DNA of 64,000 nt. It comes from a bacterium. GTDB taxonomy: Bacteria; Desulfobacterota_D; UBA1144. Made by a program: the position numbers and the translations under genes. Below the pieces are notes generated by a model that was not told where the DNA came from, did no database searches, and was given only the letters and a program-made list of their open reading frames with translations. The stretch spans positions 35,882 through 99,881 of the forward strand of contig JABILG010000016.1 in the NCBI GenBank assembly GCA_018654605.1, in the 5' to 3' direction. This document shows positions 17,022-23,745 of the stretch, piece by piece; the first letter of the stretch is position 1; every line of letters begins with the position of its first letter.

Positions 17022-17922
17022 TGTGTACCTCGCCTCTTTCTTCAGACAGTTCAACTTGCTTTTGTCTTTCAAATAAACTTTCCATCTTTTCTTTAGTTAA
17101 ATCATCATAACATTTAGGGCATGAAACACCTTTTTTATATTTAGGATGGGCAGCCTCCTCCTTTCTTAATGGCTCCCCACAGCCATTACAATTTAAATAG
17201 TTACCCTGTTTCAAATCTTGTTCAATTGAAACTCTGTTGTCAAAAACATAACATTCACCTTCCCATCTTGATTCCTCTTCTGGTACTTTTTCCAAATACT
17301 TTATTATCCCACCCTTTAAGTGGGAGACGTCTTTGAATCCTGTCTTCAACAAATAAGCGCTAGCTTTTTCACATCTAATTCCACCAGTACAAAACATTGC
17401 AATCTTTGCATCTTTCTTAATATTATGCTTCTTAATAAAATTAGGAAATTCCTTGAAATTCTTAATAGGAGGTAAAACAGCCTGTTTAAAACTACCAATA
17501 GAAGTTTCATACTTATTTCTGGTATCCATTAAAATCAAATCACCCTTACTTATTAAATTATTCCAATCTTCTGGTTCAACATACTTGCCTACAGCTTCAT
17601 TTGGATTTGATAGCTTTGGATAACCCAGACTAATAAGTTCCTCTTTAATCTTTATCCTTAGTCTCTTAAAGGGTTTAATGTTTGATTTTGAAAATTTAAA
17701 ATCATCTATAGAGAAACCTAATTTACTAAAAAAAGATGTTGCAGTTTTTAAAGAGTCATCGTCGCCCGCCAACATTCCATTTACACCCTCTTTTGAAACA
17801 ATTATAGTTCCAAGGATTTTGGATTTCTTACATAAGACAAAAAGCATGTCTTTCAATTCATCGGGATTCTTGATTGTGATAAATTTATAAAAACTAATTA
17901 TCTCGAAACTAACTTCATCCAT
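17011..17922 (-). CDS. trhO: rhodanese-domain tRNA uridine hydroxylase TrhO (YceA family)
   Basis: KEGVNGMLAG, DTRNKYE, AMFCTGGIRCEKASAYL, CNGCGEPL. Confidence 0.92.
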   Translation of the reverse strand: MDEVSFEIISFYKFITIKNPDELKDMLFVLCKKSKILGTIIVSKEGVNGMLAGDDDSLKTATSFFSKLGFSIDDFKFSKSNIKPFKRLRIKIKEELISLGYPKLSNPNEAVGKYVEPEDWNNLISKGDLILMDTRNKYETSIGSFKQAVLPPIKNFKEFPNFIKKHNIKKDAKIAMFCTGGIRCEKASAYLLKTGFKDVSHLKGGIIKYLEKVPEEESRWEGECYVFDNRVSIEQDLKQGNYLNCNGCGEPLRKEEAAHPKYKKGVSCPKCYDDLTKEKMESLFERQKQVELSEERGEVHIGE

Positions 17923-17963
17923 GGAAAAGATAATAATATCATATTAATTTTCATAAAAAGAAC

Positions 17964-17993
17964 TTGATGTTGGAGAATATATGGTGCTATAAT
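17964..17993 (+). promoter_or_regulatory. promoter of sulfate-assimilation operon (extended -10)
   Basis: TTGATG (17964-17969), 18-nt spacer, TGC-TATAAT (17988-17993); predicted +1 at about 18000. Confidence 0.75.
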
Positions 17994-17998
17994 GACAG

Positions 17999-18050
17999 TG
18001 TCGTCATTTAACTCTACTTGCAACGACTTTAAATAACTGCTAAGGCGGGC
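17999..18050 (+). ncRNA. SAM-II-like riboswitch
   Basis: GTCGT-c-ATTTAAC-TCTAC-TTGCA-ACGAC-TTTAAATAAC-TGCTAAGG-CGGG aligns with the SAM-II core recalled from memory (AUUUAAC...UUGCAA...UAAAU...GCUAA...GGG). P1 is GTCGT(18000-18004)/ACGAC(18023-18027). Pseudoknot pairs G18020-C18040, C18021-G18039, T18018-A18043, C18017-G18044 leave U18041 in the ligand-contact position. Confidence 0.85.
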
Positions 18051-18053
18051 AAA

Positions 18054-18088
18054 AGGACTTATCAGTTCTTTTCCTCTTTGGGTTACAA
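18054..18088 (+). terminator. possible riboswitch-linked hairpin/terminator
   Basis: AAAAGGAC-ttatca-GTTCTTTT (8 bp with one G-U) followed by CCTCTTT. Confidence 0.4.
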
Positions 18089-18109
18089 ATTAATTTCAGG
18101 AGTTTTGCT

Positions 18110-18193
18110 ATGGCTAATTTAAACATTCTTTTATCTTCAAAAGGAAAAGATTCATGTTGTCTTAACTTTGCAAACTCTTGCTGTTGTGGCTAA
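18110..18193 (+). CDS. 27-aa cysteine-rich leader peptide
   Basis: ATG behind a caggag SD: MANLNILLSSKGKDSCCLNFANSCCCG stop; five Cys codons; precedes cysI; below the ORF-track size cut-off. Confidence 0.7.
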   Translation: MANLNILLSSKGKDSCCLNFANSCCCG

Positions 18194-18298
18194 TAAAAAA
18201 TCAATCTAATTTGACACTTTGGATTAAAAATTTTATCAAAATTTGATAATTTTGTTCTTTCTAGTCTTGAATTAGATTTGGACATTAATATTTAAATT

Positions 18299-20002
18299 AT
18301 GGAGAGCAAGATGAAGAAAGAAAAAAAAATAGTTAAGAATGAAGGGATAAAAGAATTTAGTGATGGATTAAGAGGTACAATTCAGGAAGAGCTGTCTAGC
18401 CAGGATTCTATTAAATTCTCTAGTGATAACGAGCAAGTACTAAAATTTCATGGAATCTATCAACAAGATGATAGGGACAAAAGAAAAGCCTTAATGAAAG
18501 CTCGCCTAGAAAAAGATTACAGCTTCATGATTAGAACAAAAAATCCAGGCGGTGGAAATATAACTGCAGAGCAGTGGCTTGTAATGGATGATATTACAAA
18601 CAAATGGTCAAATCCTACCCTTAGAATTACAACCCGAGAATGCTTTCAGTTTCATGGAATTGGCAAAAAAAACCTTAAGGAATTAGTTAAGACTTTAAAT
18701 GAAAATCTTATAACTTCTTATGGAGCTTGTGGTGACATAGTTAGAAATACTGTTGCGTCACCTATATCTGATATTAGAGAAGATTTCAGCTATGACGCAC
18801 AGTCTTTAGCTAAGAAAATTGATCAAGCCACATTAGCCAAATCAAGGGGATATTATGAAATATGGGTTGATGGCGAAAAAGTTTCAACTAAAGCAAATAG
18901 AGATAAAATCGAAGAAGATTCTCTCTATAAAAAAACATACTTACCAAGAAAATTTAAAATAGGGATAGGCCACCAATCAGATAATTCAATTGATATATAC
19001 ACACAGGATATAGGGATATTGCCTATAATTGACGGAGAAAATAAGTATTTTAATATCTTAGTAGGTGGTGGATTGGGTAGTCATCATAGACAAACACAAA
19101 CCTTTCCTAGGCTAGCTGATGAGCTCGGGATGTGCAAAGAAAGTGAGGTTCTAGAAGTTGTAAAAGGTATAATAGCAATCCAAAGAGACTACGGTGTAAG
19201 AACAGATAGGAAACAAGCAAGAATGAAATACCTATTAGAAGATTGGGGGGTAGAGAAGTTTAAGGTTGAATTAGAATCCAGAATAAATTTTAAACTAGAA
19301 AAATATATTAAAAAATCGGTAGTAAGAATAGAAAACTACTATGGATGGCATAAACAAAAACAAAAAAACAAATTCTATTGCGGAATATTTATCGAAAATG
19401 GTCGAATAAAAGATACAGAAACAGTGAAACTAAAATCAGGGCTAGCTGAAATAATTAAAAAATATAATATTGAGACTAGGCTCACTGCAACACAAGACTT
19501 AATTCTAGTAAATATTAACAAAGAAGATGTAGAAGGTGTAAGTAGCCTATTAAAAGAAAATAATATTGATACAAATGAGAAATACTCTAATTTAAGATTG
19601 GCGTCCATGGCATGCCCTGCACTTCCAACATGTAGCCTCGCAGTTGCAGAAGCTGAAAGATTCCTGCCTTCTCTCATAGATCAGCTGGACCTTAGAGGAT
19701 TTGGTAATGAGAAAATAAAAATTAGAATGAGCGGGTGTCCTAACTCCTGCTCTAGGCCTCCGGTCTCAGAAATTGGACTAATTGGTGCAACAGCTAATAA
19801 ATATAATATTTACTTAGGTGGAGATTTCTATGGGACAAGGCTTAATAGATTATTTTTAGAGCTTGTGGATGATGAAGAGCTTGCCGATAAAATATCAAAA
19901 TTAATTAACTATTGGAAAGAAAATAGAAAAAATCAGAATCAAGCATTTGGTGACTTTTGTAATATTGAGGACTTTGAAGTTCTGAGGAGAGTTGTCGTAT
20001 AA
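18299..20002 (+). CDS. cysI: nitrite/sulfite reductase, siroheme hemoprotein (CysI-like)
   Basis: MACPALPTCSLAVAEAE and IRMSGCPNSCSRPPVSEIGLIG siroheme/4Fe-4S ligand motifs. Confidence 0.92.
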   Translation: MESKMKKEKKIVKNEGIKEFSDGLRGTIQEELSSQDSIKFSSDNEQVLKFHGIYQQDDRDKRKALMKARLEKDYSFMIRTKNPGGGNITAEQWLVMDDITNKWSNPTLRITTRECFQFHGIGKKNLKELVKTLNENLITSYGACGDIVRNTVASPISDIREDFSYDAQSLAKKIDQATLAKSRGYYEIWVDGEKVSTKANRDKIEEDSLYKKTYLPRKFKIGIGHQSDNSIDIYTQDIGILPIIDGENKYFNILVGGGLGSHHRQTQTFPRLADELGMCKESEVLEVVKGIIAIQRDYGVRTDRKQARMKYLLEDWGVEKFKVELESRINFKLEKYIKKSVVRIENYYGWHKQKQKNKFYCGIFIENGRIKDTETVKLKSGLAEIIKKYNIETRLTATQDLILVNINKEDVEGVSSLLKENNIDTNEKYSNLRLASMACPALPTCSLAVAEAERFLPSLIDQLDLRGFGNEKIKIRMSGCPNSCSRPPVSEIGLIGATANKYNIYLGGDFYGTRLNRLFLELVDDEELADKISKLINYWKENRKNQNQAFGDFCNIEDFEVLRRVVV

Positions 20003-20887
20003 ATGAAAAAAAATATATATCTAAAAGAATTAGAAAGCGAGGCAATCTTTATTCTTAGAGAGGTTGTCGCAGAATTTAAGAATCCTGTAATGCTTTATTC
20101 TGTAGGTAAAGATTCAAGTGTGATGCTTCATCTTGCTAGAAAGGCTTTCTTCCCATCAAAGATTCCTTTCCCGTTGCTCCATGTAGATACAGGATATAAA
20201 TTTAGAGAGATGTATGAATTCAGAGATTCATTTACTAAAGAAATTGGTGCAAATTTAATTGTATACAGGAATGAAGAAGCCATACAAAAAGGCTTTCACC
20301 CTTCAAAGAATGGAATTGCAAAATGCTGTGGAGCATTAAAAACTCAGGCTCTGCTCGATGCGCTTAGTAAATATAATTTTAATGCAGCAATAGGTGGTGC
20401 AAGAAGAGATGAAGAAAAATCTCGAGCCAAAGAAAGAATTTTTTCTTTCCGTGACTCTTTTGGTCAATGGAATCCTAAGTCACAAAAACCAGAATTATGG
20501 AACATTTTTAACGGAGAAATTGATGAAGAAGAGTCTGTAAGAATTTTCCCTTTATCTAGTTGGACAGAAACTGATATTTGGAACTATATTAAGCATGAAG
20601 GAATAAAAATTACTCCTTTATATTTTGCAAGAAATAGAAATATGATAATCCAAGATAACAGCCTAGTCCCTTCAGACGATATCAACAACCAAGGCTCAAC
20701 TAAAGTTAAATCTAGATTTAGATCTCTCGGATGTATGCCATGTACAGGTGCTATTAGATCTGATGCAACTGATATCGACATGATAATTGAAGAAACTATT
20801 AAAGCAAAAAGAAGCGAGCGGGAGACCAGAATCATTGATCACGGTTCTAATTCTATGGAAGATAAAAAGAGGGAAGGTTACTTTTAA
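20003..20887 (+). CDS. cysD: sulfate adenylyltransferase subunit 2
   Basis: MLYSVGKDSSVMLHLARKAF, LLHVDTGYKFREM, FSFRDSFGQWNPKSQKPELWN. Confidence 0.96.
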   Translation: MKKNIYLKELESEAIFILREVVAEFKNPVMLYSVGKDSSVMLHLARKAFFPSKIPFPLLHVDTGYKFREMYEFRDSFTKEIGANLIVYRNEEAIQKGFHPSKNGIAKCCGALKTQALLDALSKYNFNAAIGGARRDEEKSRAKERIFSFRDSFGQWNPKSQKPELWNIFNGEIDEEESVRIFPLSSWTETDIWNYIKHEGIKITPLYFARNRNMIIQDNSLVPSDDINNQGSTKVKSRFRSLGCMPCTGAIRSDATDIDMIIEETIKAKRSERETRIIDHGSNSMEDKKREGYF

Positions 20888-20888
20888 T

Positions 20889-22142
20889 ATGAGTGATTCA
20901 ATCGAAATTTTAAGATTTGCTACAGCAGGAAGTGTCGATGATGGTAAATCAACACTTATAGGAAGATTATTGTATGATTCAAAAGGCATATTCCTTGATC
21001 AACTAGAAACATTAGAAAATGACTCAAAATCTAAGAACCTAAAAGAAATAGATCTTGCCCACCTGACAGATGGACTTAAAGATGAGCGAGAGCAAGGAAT
21101 TACAATTGATGTAGCATATAGATATTTTTCAACCCCTAAAAGAAAATTCATAATTGCAGATACCCCTGGTCATGAAGAATATACACGCAATATGTTTACT
21201 GGCGCTAGCAACTCTAGCTTGGCAATTATATTGATTGACTCGAGAAAAGGTGTATTAACTCAATCCAAGCGTCATCTTTATATAAGTTACCTTCTAGGTA
21301 TAAAGAATATAATTGTTGCTATAAATAAAATGGACCTTGTCGATTACAGTAGAGAAGTATTTACAAATATAAGGGAGGACTTTTTAAAATTATCTGATGA
21401 TTTATCAGTCAATTCGATTAACTTTATACCTATATCTGCTCTAAAAGGAGACATGATTGTAGATAGAGGAGTCAACCTCCCTTGGTACAAAGGGGAAACA
21501 TTAATTCACATACTTGAGAATACTAAAATATACCCCGAAGAAGATTTTAGTAGATCTTGTTTTCCTGTTCAACTCGTATCAAGAGTAGACAATGAAGAAG
21601 TTAAAGATTTTCGTGGTTATATGGGAATGGTTACATCAGGAAAATTTAAAATTGGCGACAATATTAAGATTTTGCCAGGTAAAAAAGAATCAAAGATAGA
21701 GAATATAATTGTATCCGGAGAATATAGTCAAGAGATAGATAAGAGCCAATCTGGAACATTGCTATTAAAAGATGAGCTAGAAATCTCTCGTGGGGACGTA
21801 ATTGCGTCTTTGGACTATGAATTAAAGATTAATCAGACAATATTGTCTCAAATCTGCTGGATGGGAGAGGAAGGGCTTAAATTAAAGACAAAATACATAA
21901 TGAAGCATTCCAATAAGAACTCAAAAATTATAATCAATAAAGTACTAAACAAGATAAACATTGAGTCGCTGAAAGAATTAGAATCCGATGAACCATTTCA
22001 GATGAACGATATTGGCCAGGTCGAGATAAAAATCCAAAATAACATCGTCTATGATACATATGAATCAAACAAGCAACTTGGTTCTTTTATCATTATCGAT
22101 ATTGAATCAAACAATACTGTCGCTGCAGGAATTATAAAGTAA
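20889..22142 (+). CDS. cysN: sulfate adenylyltransferase subunit 1 (no APS-kinase domain)
   Basis: ATAGSVDDGKSTLIGRLLYD, DTPGHEEYTRNM, NKMDLVDY; start MSDSIEILRF. Confidence 0.95.
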   Translation: MSDSIEILRFATAGSVDDGKSTLIGRLLYDSKGIFLDQLETLENDSKSKNLKEIDLAHLTDGLKDEREQGITIDVAYRYFSTPKRKFIIADTPGHEEYTRNMFTGASNSSLAIILIDSRKGVLTQSKRHLYISYLLGIKNIIVAINKMDLVDYSREVFTNIREDFLKLSDDLSVNSINFIPISALKGDMIVDRGVNLPWYKGETLIHILENTKIYPEEDFSRSCFPVQLVSRVDNEEVKDFRGYMGMVTSGKFKIGDNIKILPGKKESKIENIIVSGEYSQEIDKSQSGTLLLKDELEISRGDVIASLDYELKINQTILSQICWMGEEGLKLKTKYIMKHSNKNSKIIINKVLNKINIESLKELESDEPFQMNDIGQVEIKIQNNIVYDTYESNKQLGSFIIIDIESNNTVAAGIIK

Positions 22143-23125
22143 TGGAAATTGCGCTTATATCTTTTTTAAGTCTAATACTAGCGTTTAATATAGGAGCAAA
22201 TAATGCTGCATCGTCTATGTCGACAGTGTATGGCGCAAAAATGCTTTCAAAACTGGGTACAGTCTCACTAGTTTTTATATTTGTATTCCTTGGGGCTTCC
22301 TTAGGAGGAGAAAAAGTTGTTACCACCGTTGGAAAGAACTTGCTTAATATAGATTTCCTTAATTTAAAATCAAACCTAATTTATCTAGTTCTAATCATTC
22401 CAATAATTTCTATATTAGTAGCAAATAAATCAAAAGTACCTATTGCTACTACCCATATAGTTGTTTGTACTATATTCGGCATAGGATTAAGCTTAAATTC
22501 TCTAAACGTAACTAAGGCTGCTGAAATAATAGGTTGGTGGCTAATTACGCCTATAGCAATATGGCTTGTAAATTATCTAATTGGAAAGTATGTATATTTT
22601 GAAATTGTCGACAAGCTAATAAGTATGGATGGACGAAAAACTCAGAGGATATCTTTTTCTTTAAAATTTTTATTGATATCTTCTGCCTGCTTTCTGGCTC
22701 TTTTTGCAGGTGCAAACAATGCTGCCAATGCTGCTGCCCCTATTGTAGGGCTCAATGTGATAACAGCGGAAGATGCAGCACTTATATCCGGCTTTTTCAT
22801 GGCATTAGGAGCTTTAATCTTTGGTGGAGCTATTATGGAGAATATAGCAACCAAGATAACTTCTCTTTCAATAATAAGAGCGATTTCTGTTAATTTTACT
22901 AGCGGTTCTTTCCTTGCATTTGCTTCCTTCTATGGGATTCCTATTTCTATGGCAGAAATAATCACATCAGGAATAATTGGTTTTTCTTGTTCAACTTCAG
23001 GATTCAAGAAGACATTTAGAAAAAAAAGCGTAGCTCAGATTGTAACATTTTGGATTCTCGCTCCAATTATTTGTATTGTAATATCATATTTTACGACCAA
23101 CCTTATACTTGGAGAAATAAAATGA
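22142..23125 (+). CDS. PiT-family inorganic anion permease, probable sulfate permease (CysP-like)
   Basis: FNIGANNAASSMSTVYGAK and FAGANNAANAAAPIVG duplicated GANN signatures; embedded in the sulfate operon. Confidence 0.85.
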   Translation: MEIALISFLSLILAFNIGANNAASSMSTVYGAKMLSKLGTVSLVFIFVFLGASLGGEKVVTTVGKNLLNIDFLNLKSNLIYLVLIIPIISILVANKSKVPIATTHIVVCTIFGIGLSLNSLNVTKAAEIIGWWLITPIAIWLVNYLIGKYVYFEIVDKLISMDGRKTQRISFSLKFLLISSACFLALFAGANNAANAAAPIVGLNVITAEDAALISGFFMALGALIFGGAIMENIATKITSLSIIRAISVNFTSGSFLAFASFYGIPISMAEIITSGIIGFSCSTSGFKKTFRKKSVAQIVTFWILAPIICIVISYFTTNLILGEIK

Positions 23126-23745
23126 ACAAAAACATAGGGCTAAGTTCCTTAAACACTGACCTTAAAAAGAAGGCTCCTATAGATATAATTAGATGGGGGC
23201 TAAAAAAGAGTAAGAATCCAATCGTGACCACAAATTTTAGACCTTATGAGGCCGCCATATTGCATCTGGTAATTCAAGCCAAACCAGACACCAAAGTCAT
23301 ATGGTGCGATACAGGTTATAACACTAAAGCAACTTACCTTTTTGCCGAAAAAATTATATCTGAACTAAAACTCAACATACTTTTATATGTTCCGAGACAA
23401 ACGAAAGAATATCGATCCATCTTTATGGGTGATATTCCGGGGGTTATGGATCCTAAACATAAAGAATTTACTGATCAAGTTAAGCTAGAACCATTTAGAA
23501 GAGCAATGTCAGAAATAGGCCCTGATCTGTGGATTACAAATCTTAGGAAGGGTCAAACACAATTTAGAGATAGTATAGACATAGCAAGTAAAACTAAAGA
23601 TGGCTTATTAAAGCTTAGTCCTTTTTATTATTGGTCAGACAAAGATTTAGATGTTTACATGAAAGAGCATAAACTAAAAAATGAGTTTGATTATTTTGAT
23701 CCTACGAAAGTTGAAGAGAAAAGAGAATGTGGGCTGCATGATTAA
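23122..23745 (+). CDS. cysH: phosphoadenylyl-sulfate (or APS) reductase, non Fe-S type
   Basis: VIWCDTGYNTKATYLFA...RECGLHD C-terminal motif; ATGA overlap with the permease. Confidence 0.88.
   Translation: MNKNIGLSSLNTDLKKKAPIDIIRWGLKKSKNPIVTTNFRPYEAAILHLVIQAKPDTKVIWCDTGYNTKATYLFAEKIISELKLNILLYVPRQTKEYRSIFMGDIPGVMDPKHKEFTDQVKLEPFRRAMSEIGPDLWITNLRKGQTQFRDSIDIASKTKDGLLKLSPFYYWSDKDLDVYMKEHKLKNEFDYFDPTKVEEKRECGLHD

Follow-up and report, generated by a model that had tools for sequence, protein, structure and literature searches.

A SAM-II-like aptamer followed by a cysteine-rich leader peptide before cysI: a candidate two-input sulfur leader in a small bacterial genome

The window (the whole 64,000-nt stretch of DNA that was analyzed) comes from an AT-rich genome of 1.02 Mb whose assembly contains no 16S sequence, and the family that carries the cassette described below probably comprises marine bacteria with small genomes. 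A leader of about 300 nt separates a promoter-like sequence from cysI, which encodes the sulfite reductase hemoprotein and is followed by four further genes of the operon. Comparison with orthologs placed the cysI start at 18311 rather than at 18299. The features of the locus are as follows.

17964-17993, + strand: predicted promoter, TTGATG - 18 nt - TATAAT, with the -10 element ending 6 nt before the aptamer
18000-18310, + strand: leader, 5' of cysI, cysD, cysN, a gene for a CysP-like sulfate permease, and cysH
18000-18049, + strand: SAM-II-like aptamer, with helices P1 (18000-18004/18023-18027), P2b (18018-18022/18038-18043) and P2a (18012-18014/18047-18049)
18009-18014, + strand: strand S1 (UAACUC) within the aptamer, able to pair with 18080-18085 of the relay strand if the aptamer is unfolded
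18045-18049, + strand: 3' strand of P2a, with 18076-18080 as an alternative partner that extends P3 (3 of 5 pairs in the window copy)
18051-18072, + strand: hairpin P3, AAAAGGAC/GTTCTTTT, arms 18051-18058/18065-18072
18074-18087, + strand: relay strand CTCTTTGGGTTACA (family consensus CTCTTTGAGTTACA), with two possible pairing partners, the aptamer and the downstream ORF
18099-18102, + strand: strong Shine-Dalgarno (SD) sequence GGAG of the leader ORF; 18099-18108 can pair with codons at 18170-18177
18110-18193, + strand: leader peptide ORF MANLNILLSSKGKDSCCLNFANSCCCG, 27 codons, ending SCCCG and a stop, with Cys at residues 16, 17, 24, 25 and 26
18170-18190, + strand: 3' arm of the putative sequestor P4, in which GCAAACTC pairs with the leader SD and TGTGGC (the last Cys-Gly) pairs with GGGTTACA
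18203-18278, + strand: long-range stem AATCTAATT/AATTAGATT, arms 18203-18211/18270-18278, enclosing an AU-rich hairpin
18301-18306, + strand: SD sequence GGAGAG of cysI
18311-20002, + strand: cysI (NF010029, 669.9 bits)
20003-23745, + strand: cysD, cysN, the CysP-like sulfate permease gene and cysH

The aptamer cassette occurs in 30 copies in 14 genomes of the family, with three copies besides that of the window in the window's own genome, and was absent from 44 other genomes of the phylum; the copies are related and partly paralogous, and counts over them are not counts of independent events. Viral contigs gave no match. All copies stand 5' of genes for sulfur, methionine or threonine handling. 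A leader ORF lies between the aptamer and cysI (n = 6), sseA (n = 6) or mtoX (n = 4); the thrC copies have no extra ORF, and in these the thrC start falls about 108 nt after the first base of the aptamer. In genomes G004 and G008, aptamer and Cys ORF both precede cysI and sseA, and mtoX lacks both parts; the aptamer and the peptide therefore appear to have been gained or lost together.

Individual loci vary in which parts they hold. About 100 nt 5' of mtoX in G004 (L095) there is neither an aptamer nor a Cys ORF, and the SD-adjacent hairpin of the leader-bearing copies is retained. A degenerate mtoX copy at L007:1470-1620 has neither GCUAAA nor the hairpin and retains a Cys-containing ORF, MLIISQVCSCFRLLNCFCGFNNIH. 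In genomes of the family, a peptide-less aptamer cassette precedes thrC together with a SAMP1-like small sulfur-carrier gene (L006:1459-3090), and this neighborhood may reflect a sulfur-carrier-based synthesis of homocysteine or cysteine. Two near-identical aptamer-thrC loci were found in one MAG (L035 and L039 of G008, on contigs C14 and C20), one of them near a contig end; the pair is possibly a strain mixture rather than a duplication.

With the -10 element of the window copy ending 6 nt 5' of the aptamer, transcription probably starts at about 18000, the first base of the aptamer. In 24 of the 30 copies, the best -10-like hexamer likewise lies 6-7 nt 5' of GTCGTC, with a mean match of 5.7/6 compared to 4.25 in control stretches. 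The aptamer therefore opens the transcript, and SAM-II has been described in the same position, just after the promoter at the transcript 5' end (PMC1273637). The first-pass annotation had called a SAM-II-like aptamer at 18000-18049, and the call held. No Rfam family matched the locus at gathering scores; at a relaxed threshold, SAM_alpha/SAM-II (RF00521) was the best of 4227 families for the window copy, with 22.9 bits. The gathering score of 36 bits was reached by 0 copies, the best of which (L002) scored 35.8 bits. The RF00521 model was built without these sequences, and in whole-genome searches it selected the same loci in the family's other genomes at E = 8e-7 to 7e-4. A scan of the phylum's genomes returned these loci and one other site, all below the cut-off. 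That site, L125 in G028, is the sole match outside the family and scored 26.7 bits. The structural hallmark of SAM-II, P1 plus the pseudoknot P2, can form across 29 copies (100% of cells paired in P1 and 90% in the P2 helix), and the core motifs AUUUAA, UUGCA and GCUAAA are conserved. Changes on both sides of a pair were absent from the P1 and P2 helices in the 29 copies, and four of the five P1 pairs never vary. Both strands of P1 are nearly invariant across genera, beyond what SAM-II needs, and a possible reason is an extra constraint overlapping P1, such as an operator or start-site sequence.

A transcription-factor operator at the transcription start, in place of any RNA switch, would account for some of these features: GTCGT-N18-ACGAC at +1 is almost invariant though the CysI proteins of the genera are only 68-72% identical, and P1 shows no compensatory change. 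An operator reading of the whole 5' block is nonetheless improbable, given that conservation reaches the SAM-II core, which is not palindromic, that the RF00521 model selects these sites from whole genomes, and that strong covariation and conserved competing pairings are found just 3' of the block.

The window copy departs from its relatives within the core. GCUAAA is intact in 27 of 29 intact copies and reads GCUAAG in the window copy and in the copy from a sister species (L009), so that position 18044 is G in the window and A in the 27 intact relatives. Ligand sites of SAM-II are listed in PMC11508383, and alignment on GCUAAA suggests that G18044 likely occupies a SAM-contact position. P2a comprises only 3 bp in the window and L009 copies. 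Since a likely SAM-contact base is changed, the element is described here as SAM-II-like and SAM binding is not claimed for the window copy, whose response to SAM may be weak. These features give weight to an account in which the Cys leader peptide alone regulates cysI and the window aptamer is the decaying remnant of a riboswitch still working elsewhere. The altered A aligns with a listed ligand site, the score of the window copy lies well below that of L002 (22.9 against 35.8 bits), and a degenerate mtoX copy in the window's genome (L004, ORF distance 77 nt) has lost GCUAAA and the hairpin and keeps its Cys-rich ORF. However, the window copy retains P1, P2b, P3 and the relay strand in full, and the sister species carries the same GCUAAG form. 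For the window copy, weakening of the aptamer deserves serious consideration as an alternative, if an unlikely one.

The Cys-rich peptide proposed at 18110-18193 was also borne out, and an ORF of the same kind, preceded by an SD sequence, was found at all 16 aptamer-bearing cysI, sseA and mtoX loci; 0 of 19 aptamer-less orthologs had a comparable ORF. Among 43 SD-preceded short ORFs of the window, this one alone encodes at least four Cys residues. The leader ORFs span 21-33 codons, carry Cys runs near the stop and lie at the same distance from the aptamer as the thrC start. Over the 16 ORFs, 93 of 436 residues (21%) are Cys, encoded by 83 TGT and 10 TGC codons. At the 16 loci, three features typical of a cysteine leader-peptide ORF coincide: a short ORF, a Cys run near its stop and a position before sulfur or Cys genes. 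Translation of the ORF is likely, as judged from the SD sequence and the conservation of the frame. A wider search of the family's genomes for Cys runs gave many matches. Some Cys-rich upstream ORFs answer to copper, and the CC..CCC clusters could bind metal, so the peptide might sense a metal such as copper through its thiols instead of reporting Cys-tRNA. This is very improbable here: the genes downstream serve sulfur assimilation and sulfur transfer, the peptide is not conserved beyond its Cys runs, and neither the number nor the spacing of the clusters is constant.

The segment between the aptamer and the leader ORF had been described as a hairpin with a U-rich tail, of which the hairpin stood and the tail did not. 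P3 shows strong covariation, with compensatory changes at 5 of 7 pairs over 29 copies; the supposed terminator U-tract, CCTCTTTG, is instead a conserved pairing strand, here termed the relay strand, with the core GAGUUACA (GGGUUACA in the window). Its GAGUUA can pair with UAACUC of S1 in 29 of 29 copies, compared to 29-48% for slid two-helix controls. The P2a strand can pair with CUUNG, which follows P3, in 96% of cells, and A-U is replaced by G-C in 8 copies. On the downstream side, most of the thrC copies show complementarity, over up to 9 bp, between GAGUUACA and codons 2-8 of thrC, and over 14 copies this pairing is stabler than in 2000 synonymous recodings. In the leader copies, the partner of relay GUUACA is UGUAAC or a variant of it, made up of the final Cys codon plus the next codon, and CAAACUC, immediately 5' of the Cys run, pairs with the leader SD region GGAGUUUG. 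Both of these P4 pairings were stabler than in synonymous recodings over 14 copies. Sister copies differ by compensatory changes (GAGUUUUGC/GCAAACUC in L001 vs. GAGUUUCGU/ACAAACUC in L009), and L040 has a further one (AGUUUAA/UUAAACU). The SD helix gave p ~0.04 in a permutation test, and the relatedness of the copies means that the pairing figures overstate independence. A lack of conserved alternative pairing outside the aptamer had been named beforehand as a finding that would speak against the proposal; such pairings are present and conserved. The SD-proximal hairpin of the sseA and mtoX copies also carries compensatory changes, at 3 of 8 pairs. Farther 3', the proposed 9-bp long-range pair between the leader stop and cysI was recovered with its first arm 1 nt from the earlier estimate. 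It is kept in five orthologs, where 82% of cells are paired and covariation is present but weak and not significant.

The first-pass annotation had further assigned a first decision to SAM and a second to Cys-tRNA by way of leader translation, a scheme taken here as transcription termination at each step. Serial attenuation of this type, with one terminator set by each input, would agree with the behavior of most SAM-II riboswitches, which act on transcription (PMC6061858), and with the pyrimidine-rich stretch after P3. However, a search for terminator-like sites (a GC-containing stem with a T run 3' of it) returned 0 sites at 17900-18400, and intrinsic termination after either hairpin was rejected on that result. 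The tail of P3 is a conserved CCTCTTTGAG with pairing partners of its own, and in the thrC copies P3 lies immediately 5' of the thrC ribosome site. There is little chance that two serial terminators operate here, and the conserved pairings point to ribosome access at the leader ORF. Some SAM-II riboswitches are translational (PMC9373788, PMC6061858). What stands of the proposed two-input leader is its architecture, a SAM-II-like aptamer and then a Cys peptide, which recurs at three types of locus and has been conserved between species; serial transcription termination is not supported.

Computed folding was then compared between states of the leader. At equilibrium, extended P3 has a mean probability of 0.71 in the unbound state, and engagement of the relay costs the downstream structure 5-7 kcal/mol on average; equilibrium folding therefore supports competition. 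Pairing between CUCUU and the SD rises in the bound state, from 0.10 to 0.27. Unpairing of the first-ORF SD was unchanged between bound and unbound states, and with the relay strand engaged it fell, opposite to the predicted rise. A stalled ribosome, modeled at 16 loci, had no consistent effect on how open the main-gene SD was.

Collectively, these results lead us to favor, with a probability of roughly 0.55, a two-stage sulfur sensor that would be on if SAM and cysteine are both low. The parts, their conservation, the covariation of P3 and the alternative pairings can be read from the aligned sequences; from them we infer SAM binding, the direction of switching, the response to Cys and the effect on the main gene. 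In stage 1, the SAM-II-like aptamer at the 5' end would compete with the relay strand. Without SAM, UAACUC of the aptamer would hold the relay, with P3 lengthened by the P2a strand; with SAM, the pseudoknot would form and free the relay, which would close a structure that covers the ribosome site of the following ORF. That ORF would be thrC itself or the Cys-rich leader ORF before cysI, sseA and mtoX, where SAM would gate translation of the leader peptide and the Cys codons would add a cysteine input. In stage 2, scarcity of Cys-tRNA during leader translation would stall the ribosome on the terminal Cys codons, where it would cover the 3' arm of the closing structure together with the sequence as far as the stop codon. 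The stall would raise expression of the sulfur gene by translational attenuation or, less likely, by Rho-dependent attenuation, and the final step onto the main gene could involve translation, Rho or RNA stability. Because cysteine could be read only after the leader had been initiated, the logic would be low SAM AND low cysteine. Of the two putative stages, the first is better supported than the second. At somewhat less than even odds, the output of the riboswitch is access to a Cys-sensing leader peptide, in a hierarchical gate that works through a mobile relay strand and, as a portable cassette, serves three sulfur loci.

In the sulfur pathway that yields both, cysteine is an early product and SAM a late one. 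If the proposal is true, a leader that reads SAM and then cysteine would provide a 1-Mb genome with two-input logic in about 300 nt of RNA. The cassette occurs with the peptide (cysI, sseA, mtoX) and without it (thrC) in the same genomes, making the contribution of each part separable by comparison.

Each half of the arrangement is known separately. The first-pass annotation knew of no described SAM-II riboswitch combined with a poly-Cys leader peptide, and no earlier description of a SAM-II-like aptamer paired with a Cys leader was found in the open-access literature. The aptamer resembles SAM-II (SAM_alpha, RF00521; PMC1273637) in its P1 and pseudoknot P2, its AUUUAA, UUGCA and GCUAAA core and its location just after the promoter. 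It differs in its sub-threshold score, its expression platform, its association with cysI, sseA, mtoX and thrC, and its putative peptide ORF target. The SAM-II riboswitch of Sinorhizobium meliloti metA (PMC9373788) likewise controls translation through SD sequestration, but there the in-frame metA start is controlled and a terminator is present, whereas here the first ORF is a separate Cys-rich leader or thrC. The leaders of cys operons in Mycobacterium, Propionibacterium and Bifidobacterium (PMC1262725) share a short ORF, a Cys run beside the stop and the lack of an intrinsic terminator. No riboswitch has been described for these actinobacterial leaders; in the present family, a SAM-II-like aptamer precedes the ORF, whose ribosome site can pair with the ORF's own Cys-run region. 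For M. smegmatis, translation attenuation by a Cys leader is reported as cited in PMC13236596 (Canestrari 2020). A tandem from a marine bacterium also has SAM-II as the first of two stacked elements, the second being another SAM aptamer there and a peptide here. A parallel in logic is found in the Salmonella mgtA leader with mgtL (PMC6460261), which also joins a ligand-sensing leader RNA to an amino-acid-sensing leader peptide; that system responds to Mg2+ and proline through transcription attenuation and an unrelated RNA, whereas the inputs proposed here are SAM and cysteine.
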